From contig PLYK01000079.1 in the NCBI GenBank assembly GCA_003151775.1, positions 9,864-61,127 on the forward strand: DNA of 51,264 nucleotides. Direction: 5' to 3'. Made by a program: the position numbers and the translations under genes. Source of the DNA: Geobacter sp. Lineage in GTDB: Bacteria; Desulfobacterota; Desulfuromonadia; Geobacterales; Pseudopelobacteraceae. The notes beneath the pieces are model-generated. The model worked only from the letters and a program-made list of their open reading frames with translations. It was not told where the DNA came from and did no database searches. Shown in pieces: positions 11,260 through 36,038 of the stretch (position 1 is its first letter; the number at the start of each line of letters is the position of its first letter).

Positions 11260-11610
11260 ATGCTATCATCATTGCGGTATATCACGGTTGTTTTCTGTTG
11301 TTTGATGCTGCATGTCACTCTCCTGGAGCGCCACGGCTTCGCCAATATGTCAACCGGCTTTCGGGTACCAGTCGATCGCGAAGCGGTCAACTGCTTTTTT
11401 GGCGCGCTGCGAAAGGATGGCAGGATAATGGTCAACATGGTCCCAGGTGCTGCCGGCATGGTGTATAGCATCACTCCGACTACCCCTGTGACGTTGAATG
11501 GTTCTCCGGTAGGACTGAATTATTTGGCAAATGGGATGCCGATTGTTTTGATCCTGAACAGACAAAAGATTGTTGACGAGATCAAGGTTAGACCGGTTGG
11601 AGGCAATTAA
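11260..11610 (+). CDS. Small secreted protein of unknown function upstream of pilY1
   Basis: I do not recognise a family. The 116-residue product starts with a hydrophobic stretch (about residues 5-24) resembling a signal peptide, followed by a soluble, glycine- and valine-rich part containing one cysteine and the segment PVTLNGSPVGLNYLANG. A GGGGGGTG run at 11247-11254 supports the ATG at 11260 over the TTG at 11245. It ends one base before the pilY1 ATG and is evidently co-transcribed with it, so a role in pilus tip assembly or PilY1 export is plausible but unproven. Confidence 0.75.
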   Translation: MLSSLRYITVVFCCLMLHVTLLERHGFANMSTGFRVPVDREAVNCFFGALRKDGRIMVNMVPGAAGMVYSITPTTPVTLNGSPVGLNYLANGMPIVLILNRQKIVDEIKVRPVGGN

Positions 11611-11611
11611 T

Positions 11612-14600
11612 ATGAAGCGGCTCATTACAGCAACTCTCGTGATGTTTGTGTTGGTGTTTTCTTCATTTCAAACGGTTTTAGCAGCTAGTGCTCCGTCCGC
11701 CCCGACCGCCAATCCAGCTACTTCACTCACAAGCACCAGTTTTTCCGCCAACTGGTCAGCATCTTCCGGAGCTACTTCTTACTATATCGATGTTGGCACG
11801 ACCAGCGGAGGCACCGACATAAAATCCAATGTGAGTGTTAGCAGCGGTACAACCTATTCGGTTACCGGACTGACTGGAGGGATAACCTACTATTACCAAG
11901 TGAGAGCACATAACAGCAGTGGCACCAGCGGGAATTCCAACGTTGTTAGTCAGTTGACCTATTCTCCCGCTCCGGTTGCAACAGCCGCAACCACATACCT
12001 TCCCGACGGCAGCGGATTCACGGCAAACTGGAACGCATCGACCTCAGCGACAGCGTATGCTCTTGATGTATCAAACAATAGTAGCTTTCCCACCAGCTAT
12101 TATACTACCACTTATCCAAGCGTAACCTCCGCAACCGTCACGGGTCTTTTGCCAGGGACAAACTATTACTACCGGGTCCGCGCTATCGACAACTCGGGAA
12201 CCAATCCGACCAACTCTAACGTCATCACCGCATTGACAATCCCGGCCGCGCCGGTGCCTACCGGCCAAACAACAACAACCACCACCTCTTTTAAGGTCAC
12301 ATGGACAGCTTCCCCCACCGCTACAGGGTATTATCTCGATGTGGCAACGGACAGCGGCTTTGTCAACATGCTGGCCGGTTACAATAATTTGAACGTTAAT
12401 AACGTTACCTCGTATACCGTGACCGGTGTCACCCCGGTCACTAACTACTACTACCGCGTGCGCGCCTACAATGGGAGCGGCACCGGTAACTCTTCAGCCG
12501 GCACATATGTTGACTATATCGCGCCGACGCTGGTCAGCCTGACGGTTGGAACAAGCAGCTCCGATGCTAATCCGGTGTTGATCAGCAATGGGATAAGCTT
12601 TAACGGGGGGCCGTATATCAGAACAGCCACTCCGTATCTGACTGCCACCTTCAGCGAACCGGTGCTCGGAGTTCAATATAGCGTCGCGAGTCAAGGCATC
12701 ACGCTGACAAATTCCGGCGGAACTATAAAAGCCCTGGCAACACCGTACACACCGGCCAACAGCACCACAGCAACCCCCGGAAGCGCCGGAAGCCCGTCGT
12801 CAGCGACGTTTCAACCGGCTACGGCCCTGGCAACCACCACATGTGCAACGTCGAAGTATACCGTCACATTCTCCGGCGGTCAAACCACCACCACCATTCA
12901 TGATGCTGGGTCGACTACCCCGACGTACGATAACGCCATGACATCGGCCGGCCCATTCTCCTTTACCGTTGATACGACCAATCCGACAGTCAGTTCCGTA
13001 TCACCTGCGACCGGCGCGACCGGGATAGCCGTCACCCAGGCTGTCACGGTTGTGTTTACGGAAAATTGCTCTATGGATTATACCGGCTATAACTCTACAA
13101 ATATCCAGTTGACCAATAGCAGCGGAACGGTGATTCCTGTCGCAATTGCCTGGTCTCCGTCTGCTCCCTATACGACGTTGACCTTGACACCCGCTGCCAA
13201 TCTCGACTACAACACTACCTATACATTGACACTTAACAACATTAAAGACGCCGCCGGAAATTTGTTGAGTGGAACCGGTTCGTTTACTTCCCAGTTCACA
13301 ACTCAGGAACTAAGCGCCTCAGCCTATAGTGTTATTCCATCGTTTCTCTCCTCGCCGGTTACGCCGAACGTGCTGATTGTCCTGGACAACTCCAACAGCA
13401 TGGATGAGACCCTCAACACCGGGGACGCCATCGGCTCATTCAACTGCACCGACCCGAATAATTCGAATACCTGCAGCCGGTCCGTGCTTGCCAGGCAGGC
13501 ATTGATCAACCTGATCAATACCTATGCCGGCAAGATAAATATCGGCTTGATGTCCTACTACCTGCCGGACGCTACCAGTAAATCCTGGTACGTTTACAAC
13601 AATTTCTACTTTGTTTCGTATGACCCGCGCACCTATTGCGGCATAATTCCCCCGCCCACGGCATGTTACAATTACTGCTTAAATGAAAATCCCCAATCGG
13701 TGCCCAACACGGACTATGGATTCGGTATTGCAGGCACGAATTATACCCCGTCTGCGAATGAAGCGGCTTGTGACAATGCCTGCCGCGGCAATGACCCGAA
13801 TTACACCGGAATCTTCAATGCCAATTTTCAGGCAAACTTCAGGGAGCCGATCATAAACGGGTCATCCGACTCTAACGGCAGCGCTCCGGGCGGCGCGAAA
13901 CGCGCGAACTACTGCGCCAATATCTACCCGAAAACAGTTGCCTATAATTACACCGATAATTCGGGGCATACCGGAACATTGTACCACAGCATTGTAGGCA
14001 CGTTTTATTCTACTAGCAACTCACAGGGAACGGCCTTCCTGAACGCCGAGAGCCCGCAGGGGACGCCGAACTACAGTACGAATGAGAGTCATACCAGTTC
14101 GTCAAACTACTATTACTACCAGAATAAAGTGACGCCCAACACGTACCCGTATAATATAGGGTACTCATCACCCTTTAATAATTCTGCATTTCAGGGAACG
14201 GATGACGACCTGGCAAATGGTTTCCTGAATTATGGTCAGTCGAACATGTGGTATCCTCCGTATAATGGAGCAGCGGCACCCACATGGTCGGCGAACCCGT
14301 ATACGGTGTCCAGTGGCATGACCGGTGGTTTTCTGCACGTGCCGGCAGCAATCAATAATCCGAGCAATAATACGCAACTGAACGCATTATTGAATAAACT
14401 CGGGGCCAACGGCTTCAAGAATGATGCGACTGACTATATGGCTTGCTCATCATCCGGCTCCAATGCAAATCGCTGCAGCTACATCGTGAACGCCGGCCCC
14501 ACCCCCACGGCATCAACATTGCAAAATGCTATCGATTATTTAAACGGAACATTAGCCGCCGGAAGAACACAAGCCAATTCCACTCCGAGCACGCCCATTC

Positions 14601-17566
14601 AATACAGTTGTCAGAAGTCCTTTATTATCTACGTAACAGATGGCCTGCCGAGTGTTGATAACGGCGCCGGGTCTGTTACCGATGCAACCGCGCTTGTAAC
14701 CGGAAAAGACGCCAGCGGTAACCCGGTAACCGTGCCGGGAGGCACTGCACTGGACAAACTGAAGCTACTGCGCTGCCCGGCCAGTCCGATTGCTGGTGTC
14801 AATTGTGGAGTTGCTCCCACGATAAACGGCGCGCAAGTCAAATCAGACGTCATGACCTATGTTCTCGGATTGGCTATGACACCCAAGGCTGGTACGCTGC
14901 TCGACCAAATGGCTGTGACCGGCGGTACGGCGACTGCGGCCGGCCATGCCTACTATGCCAATGACCCGACCTCATTGAACAACTCGCTGATAACCATTTT
15001 TCAAAATATACTTGCGCAGCTTTCAGCCGGTACAGCCGCGTCGATTCTCAACAATAGCGAGGGTAGCGGCGCCAACCTGCTGCAAGCGGTCTTCTACCCG
15101 AATAAGACATTTGACTCGAACACGCAGTGTGGATGGACCGGCGAAATGCAGAATCTGTGGTATTACGTGGATCCGTCCCTCAATAATTCCACAATTCGGG
15201 AAGATACAAACAATGATGACGAATTGAATCTGAAATACGATAAGATTGTCCATTTTTATTTCGATAACACCCAAAACAAGACATTGGTGAATATTTATTC
15301 GGATGCAAACGGAGATGGCATAGCTGATTCGACTACACCGGACAGCACCGTTGCTCCGGACTATGTCAAAAGTCTTTGGAAAGCCGGCGTACTATTGTGG
15401 AGGCGAGATGTTACCGCAGACCCGAGAACGATTTACACCGGCCTGTTTTCATCAGCCGGCGCCACGCCAAGTCTGTTGGCGCTCTCGCTGTTCAACACAA
15501 ATCCGAATCTGGATCTACTGCAAATACCTGCTGCGCTCACATTGGTCCAGAGACAGGCTAAAGCCACAACGCTGATCAACTGGGTTTACGGCTCAGATCA
15601 AGGCAATGACTCCGATGGTACCGTGTACCGGGCGCGCACGATCACCATGAACACCTGTTCGAATGACATGTCGTTGCGGTGCTCGACGAACAGCGACTGC
15701 CTGATTAAAGGCGTTGCCGGAACCTGCAGCAGTCTGAATAGCGAATGGAGGCTGGGTGACATTATCTCATCGACACCAAAGCTTGTCGCGAATGTGAAGC
15801 TGAACAGCTATGACCTTATGGCGCCGAGCGGCTATAGCGATACGTCATACGCCGGTTTTACAACAACCACAACGTACCAGAACCGGGGAATGGCCTTCGT
15901 CGGGGGCAACGATGGCATGCTGCACGCATTTAAATTAGGCACCCTTCAGGAACTAACCGGAAGATATGACAAGACACAAATCACCGGCACGAATCTTGGC
16001 CGCGAAGAATGGGCTTATGTCCCCCAAAGTGTTCTGCCGTATCTGACGTACTTGACAAGCGCATCCTATCAGCATATTTACCTTGTAGATAAAACCCCCA
16101 CTGTCACCGATGTTAGCATTGGCCTTCCGACCGGGTGTTCCACGGATTATTCCGCCTGCGCCAAAGACCCGACGACGTGGCGCACAGTACTCATTGGCGG
16201 CATGGGCATTGGAGGCGCCGTTAAATTGGATGCCGATTCATGCACGGCGCCGGCTAACTGTGTAAAGACCCCTGTCACGGATTCCAGGTTTCCGGGAATC
16301 GGCCTGTCATCTTATTTTGCACTAGATGTCACTAACCCGGAAGCGCCTAAATACCTATGGGAATTCAATGGTGACCCCAGCAACTCAAATTTTCTCGGAT
16401 ACACCACAACAGGGCCGGCAATCGTCCGTATCGCCATGAAGGACTCTAACGGGAATCCAGACAACACCAAAAACGGCAAATGGTTCGCAGTGTTTGCGTC
16501 CGGACCAACCGGGCCGATCAACACGACCCTGCAGTCCTTTTTGGGTCAATCAGACCAGAACCTGAAAATCTTCATTGTAGATCTGGCTACCGGAACTCTG
16601 GTCAAGACGATCGACACCCTCATCCCAAATGCATTTGCCGGCACTCTCAGCACCAACGTGATCGATGTCGACCGCGCCAATTCGTCGTCACAAGGTTTCT
16701 ACAGTGACGACGCCGTGTACATAGGTTACACGCAATTGGACTCGACAACGGGTACCTGGACAAAAGGCGGTGTCCTTCGTTTGTTGACTCAGGAAAGTTC
16801 CGATCCCGGGAGTTCGAGTTCGACAAAACAATGGCAGTTGAGCACGCTGATCAGCGGCATCGGACCGGTCACAACCGCTGTGGCAAAACTGCAGGACAGG
16901 GCGAATGCAAACCTTTGGATTTATTTCGGAACCGGCAGATATTTTTTCAAAGGAGATGATCCGACAACAACGACACAAAAATTATACGGCGTTAAAGAGC
17001 CATGCTACAACACAAATAATAAATTCAACCTCTCGTGCACCTCGTCTGTGACAACTGCAACCACCACCAATTGCTCCACTGTGTTGGGAAACGCAACCGG
17101 TCTGTGCGACCAATCGGGTACGACATCGACCGCTCCTTCATTAACATTGGACGGCACTATTGCAGGATGGTTCATTACACTGGACGCCGCGGGCGGCACA
17201 TCCTACTCGGAGCGTGTGATCACGGACCCGGTCGCGTTGACCAACGGCAACGTATTTTTCACGACATTCAAACCAAATTCGGATGTGTGCGCCTTTGGCG
17301 GTAATTCACTGATCTGGGCGCTGAACTATAACACCGGCGGAGTACCGCGGAGTGCAACGATGCAGGGGACCGCGCTGATGCAATCCTCAACCGGCGCATT
17401 CGCTGAACTCTCATTGGCATCGGCATTTTCAAACCCCGGAAATAGCCGGCTGGATGGACGTCGTTCGTCAGCAACGATTCAAGGGGTACCACCAACACAA
17501 CAAGGTCTCGTATTGGTAAAGAATCCGACACCGGTAAAGAAATTTCTGCATGTGCGGGAAAAATAA
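11612..17566 (+). CDS. pilY1: PilY1-type type IV pilus tip/adhesion protein with fibronectin repeats
   Basis: PilY1 proteins sit at the pilus tip or cell surface and govern pilus extension, adhesion and surface sensing. This 1984-residue protein has a signal peptide (1 to about 26), three fibronectin type III repeats (about 27-310, each starting near APxxP and ending in YYYxVRAxxxSGT), an SbsA-type Ig-like domain (about 455-565), a von Willebrand A-like region whose metal site D592-x-S594-x-S596 is in LIVLDNSNSMDE, a calcium loop DANGDGIAD (1231-1239), and the PilY1 beta-propeller with GGNDGMLHAF (1431-1440). GGAGG at 11599-11603 fixes the start; an upstream in-frame ATG at 11570 lies inside the previous gene. 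It heads a minor-pilin operon and is longer than the Pseudomonas protein because of the N-terminal repeats. Confidence 0.95.
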   Translation: MKRLITATLVMFVLVFSSFQTVLAASAPSAPTANPATSLTSTSFSANWSASSGATSYYIDVGTTSGGTDIKSNVSVSSGTTYSVTGLTGGITYYYQVRAHNSSGTSGNSNVVSQLTYSPAPVATAATTYLPDGSGFTANWNASTSATAYALDVSNNSSFPTSYYTTTYPSVTSATVTGLLPGTNYYYRVRAIDNSGTNPTNSNVITALTIPAAPVPTGQTTTTTTSFKVTWTASPTATGYYLDVATDSGFVNMLAGYNNLNVNNVTSYTVTGVTPVTNYYYRVRAYNGSGTGNSSAGTYVDYIAPTLVSLTVGTSSSDANPVLISNGISFNGGPYIRTATPYLTATFSEPVLGVQYSVASQGITLTNSGGTIKALATPYTPANSTTATPGSAGSPSSATFQPATALATTTCATSKYTVTFSGGQTTTTIHDAGSTTPTYDNAMTSAGPFSFTVDTTNPTVSSVSPATGATGIAVTQAVTVVFTENCSMDYTGYNSTNIQLTNSSGTVIPVAIAWSPSAPYTTLTLTPAANLDYNTTYTLTLNNIKDAAGNLLSGTGSFTSQFTTQELSASAYSVIPSFLSSPVTPNVLIVLDNSNSMDETLNTGDAIGSFNCTDPNNSNTCSRSVLARQALINLINTYAGKINIGLMSYYLPDATSKSWYVYNNFYFVSYDPRTYCGIIPPPTACYNYCLNENPQSVPNTDYGFGIAGTNYTPSANEAACDNACRGNDPNYTGIFNANFQANFREPIINGSSDSNGSAPGGAKRANYCANIYPKTVAYNYTDNSGHTGTLYHSIVGTFYSTSNSQGTAFLNAESPQGTPNYSTNESHTSSSNYYYYQNKVTPNTYPYNIGYSSPFNNSAFQGTDDDLANGFLNYGQSNMWYPPYNGAAAPTWSANPYTVSSGMTGGFLHVPAAINNPSNNTQLNALLNKLGANGFKNDATDYMACSSSGSNANRCSYIVNAGPTPTASTLQNAIDYLNGTLAAGRTQANSTPSTPIQYSCQKSFIIYVTDGLPSVDNGAGSVTDATALVTGKDASGNPVTVPGGTALDKLKLLRCPASPIAGVNCGVAPTINGAQVKSDVMTYVLGLAMTPKAGTLLDQMAVTGGTATAAGHAYYANDPTSLNNSLITIFQNILAQLSAGTAASILNNSEGSGANLLQAVFYPNKTFDSNTQCGWTGEMQNLWYYVDPSLNNSTIREDTNNDDELNLKYDKIVHFYFDNTQNKTLVNIYSDANGDGIADSTTPDSTVAPDYVKSLWKAGVLLWRRDVTADPRTIYTGLFSSAGATPSLLALSLFNTNPNLDLLQIPAALTLVQRQAKATTLINWVYGSDQGNDSDGTVYRARTITMNTCSNDMSLRCSTNSDCLIKGVAGTCSSLNSEWRLGDIISSTPKLVANVKLNSYDLMAPSGYSDTSYAGFTTTTTYQNRGMAFVGGNDGMLHAFKLGTLQELTGRYDKTQITGTNLGREEWAYVPQSVLPYLTYLTSASYQHIYLVDKTPTVTDVSIGLPTGCSTDYSACAKDPTTWRTVLIGGMGIGGAVKLDADSCTAPANCVKTPVTDSRFPGIGLSSYFALDVTNPEAPKYLWEFNGDPSNSNFLGYTTTGPAIVRIAMKDSNGNPDNTKNGKWFAVFASGPTGPINTTLQSFLGQSDQNLKIFIVDLATGTLVKTIDTLIPNAFAGTLSTNVIDVDRANSSSQGFYSDDAVYIGYTQLDSTTGTWTKGGVLRLLTQESSDPGSSSSTKQWQLSTLISGIGPVTTAVAKLQDRANANLWIYFGTGRYFFKGDDPTTTTQKLYGVKEPCYNTNNKFNLSCTSSVTTATTTNCSTVLGNATGLCDQSGTTSTAPSLTLDGTIAGWFITLDAAGGTSYSERVITDPVALTNGNVFFTTFKPNSDVCAFGGNSLIWALNYNTGGVPRSATMQGTALMQSSTGAFAELSLASAFSNPGNSRLDGRRSSATIQGVPPTQQGLVLVKNPTPVKKFLHVREK

Positions 17567-33806: not shown

Positions 33807-34208
33807 ATGGCAGGCAAACGATTGAAAGAGATGACCATAATGATCCTGGCCCAGGAACACATCCGGAAGGAGTGGTATTTCGACTTCGACGCAGAGGTCT
33901 TTCGGCATTTTTGCGAGAATCTGTCGCGGGACATGAAAAGGCTGGGCGTTCTTCTCAACATTGTACATAACCGCGATACTACCATCAAGATCACAAGCTA
34001 TGCCGACCTGTTGAACAGCGTCAGGATATCCTCGCCCGATGACGGCCATGCCAACCAGTGTGTCGGGCATATCATCGGCAAGAGCGAACATCTCGACATC
34101 ATGGATGATATCGGCACAGCGGTGCGGCGGGTCGCCTTTGCCCCGGAAACCATCGCGCCGTCCAGCGAGTTTCGAAAGGTATGCCACAACTGCGGTTGCG
34201 GGTGCTGA
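33807..34208 (+). CDS. Small protein with a C-terminal cysteine cluster, upstream of an ATPase
   Basis: I do not recognise a family. The 133-residue protein is soluble, with HDE-rich stretches, and ends in VCHNCGCGC, giving cysteines at 126, 129, 131 and 133 on the extreme C terminus plus C36 and C85. The tail looks suited to binding metal or an iron-sulfur centre, or to being a maturation signal. AAGGGG at 33791-33796 supports the start. The DUF815 ATPase begins 9 bases after the stop, so the two probably act together. Confidence 0.78.
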   Translation: MAGKRLKEMTIMILAQEHIRKEWYFDFDAEVFRHFCENLSRDMKRLGVLLNIVHNRDTTIKITSYADLLNSVRISSPDDGHANQCVGHIIGKSEHLDIMDDIGTAVRRVAFAPETIAPSSEFRKVCHNCGCGC

Positions 34209-34217
34209 AAAAGAGCT

Positions 34218-35102
34218 ATGATAGTTAGCGCAGACAGATTCGAAGCATTGCTGGAAAGGGTGGAGAGGCTCATCGAAGGGATGATGCCTGCCGCACCCGC
34301 CTCCCCTGATTTTGAACATTTTCTGGCGTTTCGCTGGGAGCAGACGGGCGAGCGGGGCCGGCTGGCGCCGGTTAAATACCCCCATCTCTACGACCTGGAC
34401 GAGTTGGTGGGCGTTGACGACATCAAGGAAGAGGTCATTCGCAACACCACCCAGTTCGTTTTGGGGCTGCCGGCCAACAATGTACTCCTGTGGGGCGAGC
34501 GGGGATGCGGCAAATCGTCGTTGGTCAAGGGGCTCCTGAAGCCGTTCGCCTCCCGGGGATTGCGGATCGTTGAACTCAAACGCTGGGATATCATGTCGCT
34601 CCCCCACATCACTTCCCTGCTGCGGGATGCTCCGTACCGTTTTCTCCTGTTCTGTGACGACCTTTCATTCGACGAAGGGGAGGGGGATTTTCGCGCCCTC
34701 AAGACCCTGTTGGACGGTGATATCGAGGAGCGCCCCGGCAATGTGCTGATCTATGCCACCTCAAACCGTCGTCATCTCATGCCGGAACGGATGGGGGACA
34801 ACACCGGCGAACTGGAGATACATCCCGAGGAGGCCGTGGGGGAAAAGCTGGCTTTGTCCGACCGCTTTGGCTTGACCTTCGGTTTTTACAGTCTCGACCA
34901 GGATGAGTATCTTGAAGTGGTCCGCTGTTATGCGGCCCGCAGGGGACTTTTGGTAAAAGACCCGGAATTGTGCGCCATGGCGTTGAAGTGGTCGTTGTAT
35001 AGCGCCCGCCGCAGCGGGCGTTCGGCCCGCCAGTTCGTGGATGATCTTGAAGGGCGTCTGGGTCTGTCAAAAAATGGCAGGCGAGCGAGGCCCTCTGCTT
35101 GA
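34218..35102 (+). CDS. DUF815-family AAA-type ATPase
   Basis: The 294-residue protein belongs to the DUF815 ATPases. The Walker A motif is GERGCGKS (93-100), the Walker B FLLFCDDLSF (143-151) and the sensor-like YATSNRRHL follows at about 180. The family phrase DLDELVGVDDIKEEVIRNT precedes the P-loop. These are cytoplasmic AAA+ relatives of unassigned function, often thought of as remodelling proteins. The preceding gene, encoding a Cys-tailed protein, is 9 bases away and is the natural candidate partner or substrate. Confidence 0.88.
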   Translation: MIVSADRFEALLERVERLIEGMMPAAPASPDFEHFLAFRWEQTGERGRLAPVKYPHLYDLDELVGVDDIKEEVIRNTTQFVLGLPANNVLLWGERGCGKSSLVKGLLKPFASRGLRIVELKRWDIMSLPHITSLLRDAPYRFLLFCDDLSFDEGEGDFRALKTLLDGDIEERPGNVLIYATSNRRHLMPERMGDNTGELEIHPEEAVGEKLALSDRFGLTFGFYSLDQDEYLEVVRCYAARRGLLVKDPELCAMALKWSLYSARRSGRSARQFVDDLEGRLGLSKNGRRARPSA

Positions 35103-35198
35103 CCGGTTCATGTGATGTTTACGACGAGAGCGAACCTTGGAAAGTAGTAGCTTTAAAAGACCTTATGGTGTATTTTTTCAGCGAAGGAGATGCTGTTT

Positions 35199-36038
35199 AT
35201 GACCACCGCCATACCGGAAACAGTCAGGAAGCTTTTGGCATCACAACCTATTGAGCTGCCGATCTTTCATCCTGTTGCCATCAAGCTGCAGCGAATGCTT
35301 TCCGATTATGACTTTACGGTGGATGAGGTTGCCCAAGTGGCGATCGAGGACCAGTCTCTGGCGACCCAGATGCTGAAAATGGCCAATTCGCCCATGTACA
35401 TGGGGCGCACCAAGGTCGCCACCATCAAGGAGGCCGTCATCCGCCTGGGGGCGCAGCAGGTCATCAATCTTGCCATAGCCGCATCCCAGGCTGCCATACA
35501 TACATCCCGGAATGAGGCGCTCGACCGTTACATGAAGCAGCTTTGGCTCCATAGTCACGGCTCGGCCCTCGGCGCGCGCTGGCTTGCCCATGCCTGCGGC
35601 ATGCGCGGTGTTGCGGACGAAACCTACCTGGCAGCCCTTCTGCACGATGTGGGCAAGCTCTACCTGCTAAAGGCAATCGAGCGTCTGGTGGATGCCGGCG
35701 TGATCAGCTCCATGTTCGACGAAGAACTGATCGCCGACATCTTCGAAGTCATGCACGTCGAACAGGGCTACCGCCTGATGCTGCACTGGAACTTCCCGAC
35801 CATGTACTGTGATGTGGTCCGGGATCACCATATCGAGCAGTGGGATGTGGTCAACAAGATGCTGGCTATCGTCCGTTTCGTCAACCTGGCCTGCCACAGG
35901 ATCGGTCTCGGCCTGATACACGAACCCGAATTGGCGCTGGGTGCGACCAGAGAGGCTGAAGTCCTCGATCTCAGCGATTTCCAGATTGCAGAGCTTGAAG
36001 CGCTGTTGGAAGAATCCCGGGAAGTCGGGTTTGCCTGA
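35199..36038 (+). CDS. HDOD-domain signalling protein
   Basis: The 279-residue protein is an HDOD domain (residues about 12-210): LPIFHPVAIKLQRMLSDYD, LATQMLKMANSPMYMG, AVIRLGAQQVINLA and LLHDVGKLYLL are typical. HDOD proteins lack full phosphodiesterase activity and act as signalling scaffolds in motility, chemotaxis or stress. A partial HD sequence (HDVGK) remains. AAGGAGA at 35184-35190 points to the ATG at 35199; the ATG at 35190 overlaps that site. No other domain is attached. Confidence 0.9.
   Translation: MTTAIPETVRKLLASQPIELPIFHPVAIKLQRMLSDYDFTVDEVAQVAIEDQSLATQMLKMANSPMYMGRTKVATIKEAVIRLGAQQVINLAIAASQAAIHTSRNEALDRYMKQLWLHSHGSALGARWLAHACGMRGVADETYLAALLHDVGKLYLLKAIERLVDAGVISSMFDEELIADIFEVMHVEQGYRLMLHWNFPTMYCDVVRDHHIEQWDVVNKMLAIVRFVNLACHRIGLGLIHEPELALGATREAEVLDLSDFQIAELEALLEESREVGFA

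Follow-up and report, generated by a model that had tools for sequence, protein, structure and literature searches.

An undescribed small protein with an invariant cysteine-rich C terminus in Desulfuromonadia, and its DUF815 ATPase neighbour

A short locus within a 51,264-nucleotide stretch of Geobacter sp. DNA (contig PLYK01000079.1, hereafter the window) raises the question of whether a small protein ending in a run of cysteines works together with the AAA+ ATPase encoded immediately behind it. The original prediction had joined a metal- or cluster-binding tail to a remodelling ATPase in a two-component system for maturation or repair. The arrangement itself was confirmed. The small protein, P0001, closes with RKVCHNCGCGC, and 9 bases separate its stop codon from the start of the gene for P0002. 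The latter belongs to DUF815, matching PF05673 with 334.4 bits over 247 positions (Pfam cut-off, 23.8 bits) and having a P-loop. The helical reading frame upstream, P0003, and the HDOD protein downstream are likewise present (Table 1).

Table 1. Features of the locus, in window positions.
Feature	Position	Strand	Remarks
P0003, 170 aa	33147..33659	+	all-helical; predicted tyrosine-recombinase core-binding fold, without catalytic domain
P0001, 133 aa	33807..34208	+	ATG-to-TGA ORF; predicted thioredoxin-like domain (residues 7-111) and invariant C-terminal CHNCGCGC
C85-x-G-H88 codons of P0001	34059..34070	+	invariant motif; candidate ligand pair
CHNCGCGC tail codons (P0001 residues 126-133)	34182..34205	+	
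DUF815 AAA+ ATPase P0002, 294 aa	34218..35102	+	PF05673; Walker A GERGCGKS, Walker B LLFCDD
HDOD-domain protein	35190..36038	+	PF08668; downstream neighbour

Relatives of P0001 were first gathered by scanning 84,980 species with peptide patterns, which yielded 75 homologous loci, and the protein ended in KVCHNCGCGC in all 76 sequences when the window was included. One of the scan patterns included part of the tail, and the test was therefore repeated with a whole-protein profile. Each of the 127 distinct homologues found by the profile, with the tail not used, had CH[N/D]CGCGC as its exact end before the stop (N in 125, D in 2), so that the check on the terminal cysteines proposed with the original prediction turned up no homologue lacking them. 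Every listed profile match among 277 Desulfuromonadia genomes reached the last profile position. At the DNA level, the eight tail codons and the stop were spelled in 110 ways among 133 P0001 genes, with all three stop codons in use, and what is selected is therefore the peptide together with its exact end; the conservation of the tail is not due to chance. Invariant columns also included K124-V125 and C85-x-G-H88, and there were further invariant residues outside the tail.

The same profile detected P0001 as a single copy in 200 of the 277 Desulfuromonadia genomes, representing 63 of 82 genera, and in 150 of the 187 genomes of high quality (about 80%). Beyond the class, in a 395-genome sample of the phylum, strong matches were confined to two genomes of one other family (G302 and G472); both loci (L124 and L125) encode the full tail with E about 1e-56, and horizontal transfer is suggested. 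One further relative (L058) lies on a short contig filed as Candidatus Eisenbacteria, which is probably mis-binned Geobacteraceae DNA. P0001 was absent from f21 and from G258, which we take to be Syntrophotalea-like and Pelobacter propionicus, respectively; on these inferred identities, the protein would be missing from fermentative relatives.

Cytochromes have been lost from fermentative Pelobacter, as has the monomeric isocitrate dehydrogenase that their respiratory relatives have (Butler et al. 2009, PMC2669807). Gene content was compared across a panel of 78 high-quality genomes, in which the median number of cytochrome c7 matches was 4 without P0001 and 14 with it (Mann-Whitney p 9e-7, which ignores shared ancestry). 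Monomeric isocitrate dehydrogenase was found in 19 of 37 genomes without P0001 and in 40 of 41 with it (Fisher p 1.5e-6, again ignoring shared ancestry). From these differences it follows that P0001 sits mainly in respiring lineages, a correlation that ignores shared ancestry and has exceptions: G192 has 24 cytochrome c7 matches and no P0001, and G276 has a single match together with P0001. Extracellular electron transfer is studied in Desulfuromonadia (Geobacter and its relatives) as model organisms, and a protein of this class with an essentially invariant cysteine tail may bear on whether the assembly of respiratory metalloproteins has an unrecognised step.

P0001 is an undescribed protein without a family in the two general libraries: it matched nothing in Pfam at E up to 1 and nothing meaningful in NCBIfam, and 67 members of its family gave no reproducible Pfam match at E up to 5. 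No sequence match was found in the PDB, a literature search for the string CHNCGCGC found no occurrence, and one on CXXCXCXC themes returned nothing useful. An AlphaFold2 model built with 67 homologues (pLDDT 87, pTM 0.83; the tail at low confidence) has the element order strand-helix-strand-helix-strand-strand-helix. Foldseek retrieved nothing significant with this model, and a viral structure library gave only weak generic thioredoxin-like matches. The best VIA-align matches were mostly thioredoxin-like proteins of the L51/S25/CI-B8 group (Z 5-5.7, rmsd 2.8-4.7), a weak fold match that, with a best Z of 5.7, may reflect no more than a common arrangement. Thioredoxins have their active-site CxxC where the first helix starts; neither P0001 nor the family consensus has a cysteine there, and no cysteine before C85 is invariant. 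P0001 is predicted to be a thioredoxin-like domain without CxxC that carries a flexible cysteine arm. The strand-helix order predicted for P0001 is similar to that of L51/S25/CI-B8 domains such as mL43 and NDUFA2, which also do without CxxC, but they are ribosome or complex I subunits, unlike P0001, and no sequence similarity to them was detectable for P0001 (E up to 1) or its 67 members (E up to 5).

Metal or cluster binding would be the most likely chemistry of P0001, because four cysteines and a histidine fall within its eight terminal residues and C85 and H88 are invariant as well. Cys126, 129, 131, and 133 of the arm with His127, perhaps joined by C85 and H88, may bind a metal ion or an Fe-S cluster, which the arm could then deliver or sense for respiratory metabolism. 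A-type Fe-S carriers (IscA, ErpA, SufA) have a C-terminal CGC(G) motif that resembles the CGCGC of P0001; the predicted fold of P0001 is instead thioredoxin-like, and neither it nor its 67 members matched the Fe-S biosynthesis (HesB-like) profile. With moderate confidence, we regard P0001 as a protein of the cytoplasm of respiratory Desulfuromonadia that binds a metal or cluster and possibly carries sulfur, the ATPase being a positional neighbour. We are a good deal more hesitant about a bolder version, in which the CHNCGCGC arm would be a new kind of cofactor-carrying C terminus. P0001 would then hold and pass on a metal or cluster, or would be modified itself, in the service of respiration in Desulfuromonadia; this function would lie outside the known metallochaperone families, and the loss of P0001 would go with the switch to fermentation.

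The chief rival reading makes the arm a thiol or sulfane-sulfur relay, whose tail cysteines would carry persulfides or disulfide electrons to or from sulfur or redox enzymes without holding a stable metal. DsrC and TusE, small sulfur carriers with a flexible C-terminal arm and conserved cysteines, would be the precedent, although the likeness is only in manner of working, the arm of P0001 differing in sequence and having four cysteines. The exactly C-terminal position of the cysteines and the modelled flexibility of the arm would suit a relay, as would the fact that Desulfuromonadia commonly reduce sulfur. The CxxCxCxC spacing, with four close-set cysteines and a histidine, suits a metal better, however, and no DsrC/TusE Pfam match occurred in the 67 members. 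Moreover, P0001 is lacking in f21, taken as Syntrophotalea-like, one member of which, P. carbinolicus, is able to pass electrons to sulfur according to a published report (PMC3543383). Taken together, a relay seems to us unlikely, though the best of the alternatives.

Rather less probable is a purely structural role for the tail, which would fold back to form a zinc site stabilising the domain and leave the function to the thioredoxin-like surface with its SYxDLLN and AFAPE motifs. CHNCG does resemble the CxxCG of zinc knuckles, and the invariant residues outside the tail would fit a functional surface, but a site that is only structural rarely needs all its residues and its exact terminus to be invariant. 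Metal or cluster binding by a working arm is still the reading that we prefer, one of which the four invariant cysteines and the histidine are only suggestive. The pairing of the tail with an ATPase was examined by comparing gene neighbourhoods.

Examination of the deep-branching families revealed the order (rpsO, pnp, M16 protease) dut - DUF493 - Sua5/YrdC-like - (PDZ) - P0001, in which the genes are often 0-40 bp apart, and the ancestral place of P0001 is behind dut-DUF493-Sua5/YrdC. The P0001 gene of Geobacteraceae proper stands between a response regulator gene before it and a YfcE-like phosphoesterase gene after it, the latter on the opposite strand. The M16 and dut genes are still a few genes upstream in the window, where P0001 would therefore be near its old place, and M29 aminopeptidase, P0003, and DUF815 would be newer neighbours. 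Of the 75 loci, 22 have DUF815 adjoining P0001; these 22 belong to a single family-level clade, and each has P0003 directly upstream of P0001. Most members of the class carry P0001 in another place. P0003 adjoins P0001 in 48 of the 75, and in 26-27 loci neither P0003 nor DUF815 is next to P0001. DUF815 is encoded in 263 of the 277 genomes of the class, in 1-4 copies, whether P0001 is present or not, and several genomes have P0001 without a detected DUF815 (for example, G037, G081, G082, and G127). The ATPase is a recent positional neighbour of P0001 and not a conserved partner.

P0003 is the older neighbour of the window's DUF815 copy, and the P0001 gene lies between them in one family-level clade. 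At least 23 of the 54 listed Geobacterales genomes outside that clade have P0003 and DUF815 on the same strand within about 1.2 kb, with P0001 elsewhere or missing. In the contexts fetched, P0003 and DUF815 were 35-48 bp apart, or else separated by about 0.9 kb in which an M48-like peptidase gene, so named from its sequence, was located. When 56 DUF815 proteins were placed in a tree, one branch (96/86) set all 38 copies linked to P0003 on the same side, and the P0003-P0001-DUF815 arrangement was nested among them; the proteins had been picked for these contexts, and the tree shows nesting and gives no frequency. P0002 of the window falls in this P0003-linked sub-clade of Geobacterales, separate from the other DUF815 paralogue, for which no conserved partner was seen in 18 contexts. 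Within the clade, P0001 is missing once more from three genomes (G258/G259 and G221; loci L160, L210, and L211), in which P0003 and DUF815 stay adjacent and which constitute natural deletion strains.

That P0001 and DUF815 form a conserved pair is ruled out by the linkage in only 22 of the 75 loci and by the nesting in the tree. A two-component system for maturation or repair, in which the ATPase would remodel the cysteine-tailed protein or its client, can still point to the close spacing in the window and to the adjacency kept throughout one clade, yet we consider it very unlikely given that the adjacency is missing in 53 of 75 loci, that P0003-DUF815 pairs occur without P0001, and that P0001 occurs in genomes with no detected DUF815. 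The ATPase of the window would rather belong with P0003, and P0001 and the ATPase would not make up one machine. The side suggestion about P0003 was the better one, this gene being the older partner of the window's DUF815 copy; the HDOD gene follows only in the window's family-level clade. In sum, what had originally been observed was confirmed, and its reading held up in part: the tail is exceptional, and no support was found for a two-component system with the ATPase.

Least probable of all is that the invariant C-terminal peptide is a precursor core, led by the folded domain, on which GeoRSP or another radical SAM/SPASM enzyme would act. P0001 does occur in 20 of the 22 panel genomes with a GeoRSP enzyme (in one of the 20, the enzyme is present only as fragments below cut-off; Fisher p 1.4e-5, which ignores phylogeny). 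Half of the panel genomes with P0001, among them that of the window's own genus (G253), nevertheless lack the enzyme over cut-off, which rules it out as an obligate maturase, and in the contexts examined no radical SAM gene was recognised next to P0001.

P0003 was found in 240 of the 277 genomes of the class, with more distant matches in two families of the same phylum (f46 and f69). It has no Pfam or NCBIfam match, and one weak Phage_int_SAM match was the only one among 49 members. The first 28 rows of the VIA search with its AlphaFold model (pLDDT 90) were all tyrosine recombinases or integrases, with Z from 10.3 to 6.3 before a drop to 5.2 at row 29; 3nrw gave Z 10.3 and rmsd 2.3 over 103 residues, and XerD (1a0p) gave Z 10.0 over 90. 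P0003 is thus predicted to have the core-binding (SAM-like) fold of tyrosine recombinases, which, unlike this stand-alone protein ending at residue 170, carry a C-terminal catalytic domain. A literature search on the core-binding theme gave nothing useful, and titles and abstracts held only incidental mentions of DUF815. A stand-alone, recombinase-like core-binding domain beside the ATPase gives one DUF815 protein a concrete candidate for a partner.

The assembly of the window holds a second P0003-DUF815 pair without P0001 (L159, G000:C41:17000-25471), which the DUF815 tree shows to be of the f3/f4 type and which is either a xenologue or on a mis-binned contig. In several Geobacteraceae (L147, L150, and L151), P0003 is followed, directly or after DUF815, by TilS-/FtsH-like genes, named from sequence. 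Elsewhere in the window, an ORF of 1998 aa at 11570-17566 contains domains of the fibronectin type III and the bacterial Ig-like (Big_5) kind and probably encodes a surface or secreted repeat protein.
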